Assembly (NCBI GenBank): GCA_020849655.1 | Contig: JADLFU010000223.1 | Location: 1 to 42,428 of the forward strand | Length of the DNA: 42,428 bases | Source of the DNA: Polyangiaceae bacterium | GTDB lineage: Bacteria; Myxococcota_A; Polyangia; Polyangiales; Polyangiaceae | Direction: 5' to 3' | In this document: piece by piece, positions 6,570-10,179 of the stretch | How positions within the stretch are numbered: the first letter of the stretch is position 1 | Layout: each line of letters starts with the position of its first letter | Made by a program: the position numbers and the translations under genes | The notes under the pieces: generated by a model | Seen by the model: the letters and a program-made list of their open reading frames with translations, nothing else | Told to the model about the DNA's origin: nothing | Database searches by the model: none

Positions 6570-7409
6570 TCAGGGAGGGGGCTCGGCGAACCGGCGATCC
6601 ATCGGGAACGGCTCCGCGCGCCGCCGCACGGCGATCTCCGGCTCCTCGCGCCGCTCGGGGATGACGCCCGCCGCGACGAGGCCGTCGCGATCGTCGTAGC
6701 GCAGCGTGTGCCTCGCGAACGGCGCGGCGGAGTCGCGGACGAACGCCGTGTCGACGACCCGCGAGCTGCGACGCTCACCGAAGCTCGTGCCGAGGCCGGG
6801 GCGATCGTCCGCGCGTCCGCGCTCCTCCGAGCGTGCGCCGGAGCCAGCCCGCGGCGCGGCCGACGGGCGGGGGGGCTCTGCGCGCTGCACGATCGGCGCC
6901 CGCTCACGGAACAAGAGGACGCCGATCACGCCGACGTCGTCGGGCTGCCCCTTCCGCGCCGCGTACGAGTCGCGGACGCTCGAGAAGCGGAACGCGGCGA
7001 CCTCCGACCGAGACGTGCGGAACCCCTCGAGCTCCAGCGTGCCGAACGGCTCGATCACGTAGCCACGCTTGTCGCGGCTCGCTGAGCGCCCGTCGATCGC
7101 GTCGAGCCCGTCGACCGACACGACGGCCTCGACGCGCTCGCCGGTCGGGTTGCTGACGCGGATCTTGTAGCGCTCGCCGCGCACGCCCTCGACGTAGGTG
7201 CGGCCCTCGTGCTCGAACGTCGGCAGCCTCGCGCCGGACGCGCGGACGACCTCGACGCGGGCGCGCGCCGAGATCGGCGGGTGCGGAGGGGGAGGCCGGC
7301 GCGCGCGCGCCCCCGCCACCTCGGGCGACGGCTCGGAGGCGCTGGCGTCGGCGCACGCGACGGCGAGCAGGGACACGAGCAGGAGCGGGAGGAGCGACGT
7401 CGTGCGCAT
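6570..7409 (-). CDS. Conserved lipoprotein of unknown function
   Basis: A 279-residue protein with a lipoprotein signal (LLLVSLLAVAC, Cys19). A Pro/Arg-rich linker runs to about residue 48. A beta-rich domain follows at about 50-165 containing YKIRVSNPTGERVEAVVSVD, KRGYVIEPFGTLELEGFR and VAAFRFSSVRDSYAARKG. I recall this domain as a recurrent uncharacterised one in proteobacterial and myxobacterial envelope proteins, but I cannot give it a name or an activity. The C-terminal 100 residues are low-complexity (Pro, Arg, Glu). It ends 49 bases before the GH92 start on the same strand, so the two may be co-transcribed. Confidence 0.75.
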   Translation of the reverse strand: MRTTSLLPLLLVSLLAVACADASASEPSPEVAGARARRPPPPHPPISARARVEVVRASGARLPTFEHEGRTYVEGVRGERYKIRVSNPTGERVEAVVSVDGLDAIDGRSASRDKRGYVIEPFGTLELEGFRTSRSEVAAFRFSSVRDSYAARKGQPDDVGVIGVLLFRERAPIVQRAEPPRPSAAPRAGSGARSEERGRADDRPGLGTSFGERRSSRVVDTAFVRDSAAPFARHTLRYDDRDGLVAAGVIPERREEPEIAVRRRAEPFPMDRRFAEPPP

Positions 7410-7456
7410 GGTGAACCCTTCCGACGCGCCGCGCGCCCCGACGATCTACCGCCCCG

Positions 7457-8845
7457 TCACTTCTGCCGCTTCTTCGCCGCGGGTGCCGACTCCTTCGCCG
7501 CCTTCTTCACCGCCCTCGCCGCGATGGTCGCCCACACCGGCTCCTTCGCCGCCTTCTTCACCGCGCGCACCGGCAGCTTCACCGCGGACGCCGCCTTCTT
7601 CGCCGCCTTCCCCGCCGCGGGCGCCGCCTTCTTCGCCGTGGGCTTCTTCGAGGACGACCTCGGACGAGAGCGCCTGGAGCGCGGGGCGCCGTCCGCCGCG
7701 GCGAACACGATCGTCTTCTGCAGCTGCGCGCGGCGCTTGTCGACCTGACGGCCGAGCTCGCGCGTCGCGCTCGCGAGCTCGTCGATGAGCCGCAGCGGGC
7801 GCTTCTTCGCCTTCGGGTCCTCGAGCAGCGCGTGCGTGAGCCACGGGAACACGGCGGTCACGTCCGCGTGCACGTACACGCTGCCGCGCGCGACGCTCTC
7901 GGCGCTGACCTTGCCCCACGTGTGCCCCTCGCCCGCCGGGCAGCTCGAGAGCGCGCCGTTGTCGACCGGGTCGACGCAGAGCTGCACGTCGATGTCGAAG
8001 CCGTCGGTCGGCACGCCGAGGATCTGATCGAGCAGCGGCTCGCCCTGCAGCGTGTAGTTCTTCGGCACGCCGCCGCCGAGGATCCACACCGCCATCGTCT
8101 TCTTCAGCGTGCCGAAGCAGTGGTACTGCGCCGCCGCCATCGCGAACACGTCCTCGGCGACGTCGAGCTCCAGCTTGAAGGCGTCGCCGAGCAGGCGCTT
8201 CAGCTTCACGATGTTGAGAAAGATCGATCCGTCCTGCACCGCGCCGACGAAGATCGGCACGCCCATGCGGTACGCGGTGGAGAGGAGCGACGGCTGCTCG
8301 ACGCCGAGCGCATCCTCGATCGCGGCCATCTCTCGCCCGAGCAGGTAGTGGAGCTCCGGCGTCGTCATCCGCCGCTGAAACGCGGGCTTCTGCAGGATGG
8401 CCGAGAACAGTTTGTCGGTCTCGAGCAGCGTCTCCTCGGGGAACCCGAGATCGTAGATGCGGATGATGCGCGCGAGGCGCAGCCGCACGTCGCCCGCGTT
8501 GGGATCGATCTCGCGGATGCGGTAGCCGATGATGCGGTGCGCGTCGTGGTAGAGGTTCGCGCCGGTCGTCGTGATGCAGTCGACGATGCCGCGCTCGAGC
8601 AGCGGGATGAGGCACGACTGGTGGAGCCCCGCCGGGGTCATCGCGCCGCTCAGCGTGAGGAACACCGCGGCGTCCGAGTCGACGCTGCGCTTCATCAGCT
8701 CGAACGCCGTCCGCTCCTGCCGGCCGACGTACGCGGGGAAGGCGTTCGCGAGCACCTCGCGCGCCGACTGCTTGCCGGTGATCGCGCGGGGGTGCACCTC
8801 TCGGGAGCGGCCGAACTCGCGCTGCACGCGCGCCTTGGGGGTCAT
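7457..8845 (-). CDS. Deoxyhypusine synthase-like enzyme with a histone-H1-like C-terminal tail
   Basis: A 462-residue protein. Residues 1-385 are a bacterial deoxyhypusine-synthase-family catalytic domain: AGMTPAGL-like block GAMTPAGLHQSCLIPLLERG, TTTGANLYHD, and GGGVPKNY with Lys262 at the place of the lysine that forms the enzyme-imine intermediate in eukaryotic DHS. Bacteria lack eIF5A, so the substrate is more likely a polyamine; a homospermidine-forming role is possible but not shown here. Residues 388-462 form a Lys/Ala/Pro/Arg tail (SKKPTAKKAA, KAAKKA, AVKKAAKE, PAAKKRQK) like histone H1, not normal for this family. The ATG at 8845 is preferred because upstream in-frame sequence is Arg-rich and non-conserved. 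Confidence 0.85.
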   Translation of the reverse strand: MTPKARVQREFGRSREVHPRAITGKQSAREVLANAFPAYVGRQERTAFELMKRSVDSDAAVFLTLSGAMTPAGLHQSCLIPLLERGIVDCITTTGANLYHDAHRIIGYRIREIDPNAGDVRLRLARIIRIYDLGFPEETLLETDKLFSAILQKPAFQRRMTTPELHYLLGREMAAIEDALGVEQPSLLSTAYRMGVPIFVGAVQDGSIFLNIVKLKRLLGDAFKLELDVAEDVFAMAAAQYHCFGTLKKTMAVWILGGGVPKNYTLQGEPLLDQILGVPTDGFDIDVQLCVDPVDNGALSSCPAGEGHTWGKVSAESVARGSVYVHADVTAVFPWLTHALLEDPKAKKRPLRLIDELASATRELGRQVDKRRAQLQKTIVFAAADGAPRSRRSRPRSSSKKPTAKKAAPAAGKAAKKAASAVKLPVRAVKKAAKEPVWATIAARAVKKAAKESAPAAKKRQK

Positions 8846-8897: not shown

Positions 8898-9991
8898 TCA
8901 GCGCGCGCGCCCCGCGGCGAACAGCGCAGGCGCGCGCGTGACGACGGCCGCGCGGCGCACCAGCTCGTCGAGCGCGTCCGCGTCGCGCACCGCGAGCACC
9001 CGGCGCCGCGTCGCCTCCGACACCGCCAGCCCGCGCGCCTCGAGGACGAGCAGCACCGACCGCGCGAGCCGCGCGAGGCCTTCCTCGCGACCCTCTTCGC
9101 GACCCTCTTCACGCCCAGCTTCGCGGCCGACCTGCTTCCAGTAGCGAGAGAGATCGCTCTCGACGTCGTAGCGCTTGTTCATGAGGTGCTCCTTCGACAT
9201 GGATTTCGGGGTCCCTTCGTCGCGAGCGCCGGATTCCTCGCGTCCTTCGGCTGCCTTGGGTGCAACCGTGCTCGACGTGGCACGGCCACGCCTGCGCGCG
9301 GTTCCAGCCCAATCCAGCTCGAATTCCGCTTCGGGCTCCGACACTCGCTCCTTGTGCCCCCGAAATCCATGTTCAACGCGGCCCGCGCGGGCTCGTTCAT
9401 CCTGGTCCAGATGAGGTTGAAGTAGAGCGCGCGCTCCTCCTCGTCGGCGCGCGCGCTCGCCGCCAGGAGCGCGCGGCCCGCCAGCTCCAGCGCGTCGGGC
9501 GCGCGCGCGTGCACCAGCGCCGACAGCACCGCCAGCGCCCACGCCTCCGCCGCCTCGCTCTCCTCCAGCCTCGGCATGCGCGACGGCCCCAGCACGGTCG
9601 GCCACAGCGCGCTCCCGGTCTCCAGCTCGATCCGGCGGCTCGCCCAGCGCTCCACCGCCGGCGTCAGCGCCACCACGAAGAGGTGCACCGGGCACCGCAG
9701 CCGCGCGCGCAGCGTCGCGACGTAGGCCGGCCATACGTAAGGCTTGTCGTCATCGCGCCGGCCCTGCACCTCGGCGATCGCGGCTGCGAGCACGCGTCGC
9801 CGCGCGTCGCGGAACACGATCACCCGGTCGGCCCGCAGCTCCACGGGCGCTGTCTGCGAGAGATCCGTGTCGGCGAGCTCCGCGAGCGCCGCTGGAGGCA
9901 ACCGCACGCCCGCGCGCTCCGCCAACGCGACCAGCGTCGCGGGGTGCCGACCGAGCAGATCCGCGATGGCGTCGTGCAGCGTGCAGCGCAT
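8898..9991 (-). pseudogene. PD-(D/E)XK nuclease-like Polyangiales protein, interrupted by a small insertion
   Basis: The N-terminal part starts at ATG 9991 (MRCTLHDAIADLL) and reads in one frame to about 9373. It contains the PD-(D/E)XK-like pattern ELRADRVIVFRD, then AIAEVQGRRDDDKPYVWPAYV, with Asp, Glu-x-Gln and Lys in the right order. The C-terminal part, HLMNKRYDVESDLSRYWKQ then REAGREEGREEGREEG and VLEARGLAVSEATRRRVLA, lies in a different frame from about 9196 down to the stop at 8898. I recall intact homologues in Polyangiales with the same two halves joined. The 176-bp insertion at 9197-9372 separates them and shifts the frame, so the gene is probably non-functional or yields a truncated product. 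The family resembles Rpn/transposase-associated nucleases; its role is unknown. Confidence 0.75.
9197..9372. mobile_element. MITE-like insertion with 15-bp terminal inverted repeats
   Basis: ACATGGATTTCGGGG at 9197-9211 is repeated in perfect inverted orientation at 9372-9358. The 176-bp segment has no transposase-size reading frame and lies exactly where the PD-(D/E)XK-like gene loses homology and frame. A direct repeat of only 3 bases (TTC at 9193-9195 and 9372-9374) could be a target duplication, but this is weak and overlaps the end of the repeat. It is either a miniature inverted-repeat element mobilised in trans or the remnant of an insertion sequence. No second copy was seen in the window. 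Confidence 0.65.
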
Positions 9992-10068
9992 GCGAGGCGT
10001 GAAAGCACGCGGCGGGCCAGCGTGAACCACCGCATTCTTCGCTGAAAATCGACCTCCACGGGGTGGAC

Positions 10069-10098
10069 GTGGACGCGGCGTCCGTGGACGCGGCGTCC
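10069..10098. repeat. Tandem 15-bp duplication in an intergenic stretch
   Basis: GTGGACGCGGCGTCC occurs twice in a row. It lies in the 188-base gap between the broken PD-(D/E)XK-like gene and plsC. I see no convincing gene or promoter elsewhere in this gap. Confidence 0.6.
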
Positions 10099-10179
10099 TC
10101 CTCCGCGCTCCGCGGCGCCGAGCGCACCCACACCTGGGGAGGGCTCCGGGACAGCGGCGGCCGAGCGCTCGCGACCCCC

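Follow-up and report, generated by a model that had tools for sequence, protein, structure and literature searches.

Gene architecture and fold

The window analysed here is a stretch of 42,428 nucleotides from a Polyangiaceae bacterium (GenBank assembly GCA_020849655.1, contig JADLFU010000223.1, forward strand). It carries a gene for a protein resembling deoxyhypusine synthase (DHS), with the following features:

7457..8845, minus strand: DHS-like gene, predicted SpeY-type, 462 residues
7730..8845, minus strand: core, residues 1-372
8060..8062, minus strand: codon of K262 (GGGVPKNY), which corresponds to human K287 and does not form the imine
7910..7912, minus strand: codon of K312 (WGK motif), equivalent of the human catalytic K329
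7460..7690, minus strand: basic tail, residues 386-462
7547..7643, minus strand: imperfect 21-nt repeats inside the tail
7371..7721, no strand: DNA that finds no match in the same-genus relative, with nearly the whole tail inside

The reading frame opens with an ATG at 8845 and closes with the stop at 7457, and its start codon is the same as in the same-genus relative, L032. A Pfam search of the protein returned a single domain, DS (PF01916), at residues 38-339 (E = 3.8e-54), and the window gene is the sole DS match in its genome. The core is 60-95% identical to Myxococcota orthologues. Its AlphaFold model is confident, with pLDDT mostly >90, and structure comparison identified a DHS fold, with a K329A structure among the fold matches. 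The domain match and the fold together bear out the assignment to the DHS family in an earlier note on this DNA.

Active-site residues

Residue equivalence was established by aligning a profile of 41 homologues to human DHS (1dhs; residue 321 of the chain, with an offset of 8, is human K329). The imine in DHS is formed by Lys329 (PMC7226451). In the alignment, K312 of the motif EGHTWGK lies opposite human K329 of SWGK, and K312, E306 and W310 are each invariant in 41 of 41 sequences. The earlier note had placed the imine-forming lysine at K262 of GGGVPKNY. However, this residue is opposite human K287, which adjoins H288, and Arg or Gly replaces it in some paralogues. The comparison with human DHS thus corrects the catalytic assignment: the catalytic lysine is indeed kept in the enzyme, but at K312 rather than at K262.

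Further DHS-like proteins in genomes of the family and the order (L016-L020, L023 and L026) have Arg or Gly at the K262 position and keep the K312 equivalent. Taking such proteins, from the Arg or Gly, as paralogues devoid of the catalytic lysine was rejected, since the alignment to human DHS shows that the WGK-type lysine is retained.

The window protein shares with human and archaeal deoxyhypusine synthases the fold and the equivalents of K329, E323, W327 and D238. It differs from them in that D243, D316 and H288 of the human enzyme are replaced by L210, L299 and N263, respectively. A second difference is that no eIF5A was detected, either in the source genome or in 56 others of the order, by a search that missed some archaeal controls.

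Prediction of the reaction product

The top NCBIfam model for the window protein is PRK00770 (NF001980, homospermidine biosynthesis), with 280 bits, below the equivalog cut-off of 450. Two orthologues score similarly on this model (279 and 283 bits), and the DHS models give at most 165 bits for the window protein.

The genome also encodes proteins related to polyamine synthesis. They include a biosynthetic arginine decarboxylase, SpeA (L119, 903 bits), and two agmatinase-family proteins, both of which stay below their equivalog thresholds. About 1 kb from the gene of a SpeD-like protein (66 bits, against a cut-off of 75.65), a SpeE-like, aminopropyltransferase-like protein is encoded. No polyamine gene was found beside the window gene or as a conserved neighbour across the Polyangiales loci, and this neighbourhood comparison showed no polyamine operon at the window gene. 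Among the orthologues, 19 loci, mostly of Myxococcaceae, have a homologous speA-type gene in the flanking DNA that was fetched; the speA near the DHS-like orthologue of Corallococcus scores 930 bits. A neighbour family of 12 loci, beside some Archangium-type loci, was considered as a further speA and discarded because its translation is unlike a decarboxylase.

Myxococcus xanthus makes homospermidine lipids, for which a route that starts from arginine and passes through putrescine has been proposed (Hoffmann et al. 2018, cited in PMC9548883). Considering the top family model, the substitutions at the substrate site, the undetected eIF5A, the polyamine genes and these lipids of M. xanthus, we propose that the window protein is a SpeY-type synthase of DHS fold, most likely making the polyamine homospermidine. 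It has in common with SpeY (NF001980/PRK00770; PMC9992855, PMC10407285) the DHS fold, the catalytic lysine of the WGK motif, the best-scoring family model and the failure to find an eIF5A partner. However, it scores below the equivalog cut-off and has a basic C-terminal tail, and its SpeY-type activity is a prediction from sequence. In the first step, putrescine, spermidine or a comparable amine would be oxidised with NAD. K312 would then carry the aminobutyl group as an imine, and transfer of this group to a small amine would give homospermidine or a close relative. Hypusination of a protein would not be among the reactions of a SpeY-type enzyme in this scheme.

The basic C-terminal tail

A Lys/Ala/Pro/Arg-rich tail had been described in the earlier note, and it is present as a segment of 77 residues (386-462) with a net charge of +23. 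Its composition is 30% Ala, 22% Lys, 10% Arg, 9% Pro and 9% Ser. GC content at third codon positions (GC3) is 97% in the final 90 codons, compared to 61% at positions 1 and 2, and is also 97% in the core; with this pattern up to the stop, the frame most likely encodes protein along its full length. In the AlphaFold model the tail has pLDDT of 33-58 over most of its length, with a single weak C-terminal helix at residues 437-461 reaching about 73. The tail is therefore predicted to be a mostly disordered polycation.

The description of the tail as histone-H1-like agrees with its composition but not with any family, as no Pfam or NCBIfam model matches it. Similarly, the likeness to the histone-H1-like C-terminal domains of AlgP and PhaF (PMC9239181), which are also Ala/Lys/Pro-rich, disordered and basic, is compositional only. 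In contrast to those domains, the window tail has no family match, is about half as long and is fused to an enzyme; it also lacks their tandem KPAA repeats, there being no KPAA anywhere in the window protein. The Lys/Ala/Pro-rich tail of Pseudomonas AlgP can associate with DNA and with polyphosphate granules (PMC9239181). Literature searches at the level of titles and abstracts turned up no DHS-family enzyme described as having a basic tail.

For comparison among relatives, 90 closed rows with at least 60% identity were used, several of which duplicate one genome. A tree of 87 cores was built by a quick search with SH-aLRT support only. In this tree the Polyangiales-type rows cluster, the term referring to position in the tree and not to the taxonomy of each record. 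The window protein has 90 residues after the core, the same-genus relative, whose core is 95% identical, has 28, and the other Polyangiales-type orthologues have 13 to 64. The net charge of the last 20 residues averages +6.8 in Polyangiales-type orthologues and is at least +3 in 30 of 31 rows. The corresponding mean is +0.7 in background ORFs of the same loci (28 of 132 at +3 or more), a rough control because these ORFs were chosen through a GC3 filter and not from annotation. Myxococcales-type orthologues, whose C-terminal ends are short and neutral or acidic, have a mean of -0.7 (+3 or more in 3 of 41 rows). Mann-Whitney tests gave p values of 6e-16 and 5e-13, which ignore kinship and so overstate the evidence. 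Parsimony requires six changes of state on the 87-core tree. There is neither sequence conservation nor an alignable or common lysine position among the tails.

A basic C-terminus is thus, from sequence comparison, a clade trait of the Polyangiales-type orthologues, with length and sequence left free. Conservation of the tail in Polyangiales homologues holds in part: a short basic tail is found in nearly all of them, whereas the long H1-like segment is not shared, the same-genus relative having its 28 residues only.

Origin of the long tail

The 21-nt repeats in the tail were detected by Tandem Repeats Finder with scores of 71 and 65. The blastn match to the same-genus relative ends at 7722 and resumes at 7370, just within the next gene. 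Across this break, the DHS-like gene of the relative ends in its short tail and is directly followed by a signal peptidase gene in antisense orientation (Peptidase_S26, E = 8.9e-37; L032, positions 7200-7900), which has no counterpart in the window. An origin of the tail by fusion with the gene adjoining the relative's copy was rejected, as that gene is the antisense signal peptidase and is not lysine-rich. A search for a second copy of the tail in the genome gave no significant match, and no exact coding pattern for KKAAKKA was found either; neither search pointed to a donor gene. The simplest reading of these sequence data is that the tail may have grown through repeat duplication near a rearranged junction.

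Two further observations concern the surroundings. Between the acyltransferase-like and the DHS-like genes, about 1.2 kb of the window (8917-10178) is missing from the same-genus relative; the frames in it resemble one gene that is broken or made of two parts, and none matches Pfam above a curated cut-off. The next downstream gene (6570-7409, minus strand) matches the function-unknown family DUF7918 weakly, with 25.6 bits against a cut-off of 27.

Possible role of the tail and alternative readings

The occurrence of a basic C-terminus in nearly all Polyangiales-type orthologues makes contact with a polyanion plausible, and the tail, being a disordered cation whose length varies, suggests that such contact would be weak and electrostatic. 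The tail would most likely make sequence-independent contact of this kind with RNA or the ribosome, DNA or polyphosphate, and may keep the enzyme at places where polyamines are bound. We give about an even chance to this reading as a whole, in which a SpeY-type polyamine synthase would carry a disordered basic tail as an electrostatic tether.

Its main rival, possible though clearly the less probable of the two, is that the enzyme is a SpeY-type synthase of the ordinary kind and that its long tail serves no specific function. In that case a C-terminus that tolerates additions would have grown almost neutrally, through duplicated repeats or a local rearrangement, in a genome of high GC content. 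The 21-nt repeats, the position of the tail at the synteny break, the 28 residues of the same-genus relative and the lack of conservation among tails are all consistent with such growth; the variable sequence and length would be expected of a neutral extension as well. However, the C-terminus is basic in 30 of the 31 Polyangiales-type orthologues, a clear excess over the neighbouring ORFs, which suggests that the charge itself is retained.

The reaction could also be the coupling of guanidino amines instead of putrescine or spermidine, from agmatine to caldomycin, as by CdmS, the caldomycin synthase (1,9-bis(guanidino)-5-aza-nonane synthase) of Thermus thermophilus. The window protein shares with that enzyme the DHS fold and the lack of an acidic residue at the sites of D243 and D316, where CdmS has Phe204 and Leu286 (PMC10981699), and SpeA and the agmatinase-family proteins are present in the genome. 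We consider this unlikely because the window protein scores just 121 bits on the CdmS-type model PRK02492 (NF002699; cut-off 500) against 280 on PRK00770, while DHS-like proteins from Nostoc and Sphingomonas plasmids exceed that cut-off with 587 and 564 bits. At the D243, D316 and H288 sites, the residues of these plasmid proteins are Phe, Leu or Cys, and Asn.

A fault in the assembly or binning of this metagenome-derived contig would account for the tail falling where the same-genus relative ceases to match, but it is very improbable, as the tail is in frame with coding GC3 up to the stop and the match resumes just within the next gene. Least credible of all is the suggestion of the earlier note that the tail lysines are acceptors aminobutylated in cis, in the manner of eIF5A: the equivalent of the catalytic lysine and a lysine-rich tail are present, but no positive evidence was found for it, D243, D316 and H288 are substituted, eIF5A was undetected, the long tail is missing from the same-genus homologue, Myxococcales-type orthologues end short and neutral or acidic, and the absence of an alignable lysine among the tails argues against a specific acceptor.

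Whether or not the tail acts as a tether, the comparison indicates a conserved DHS-like clade in myxobacteria, a possible source of the homospermidine found in Myxococcus lipids. That the basic tail anchors the polyamine synthase on RNA, DNA or polyphosphate throughout the clade in Polyangiales, with synthesis taking place where polyamines bind, is a tentative extension that we find rather doubtful. If the tail does tether the enzyme, polyamine synthesis would be positioned on its own target.
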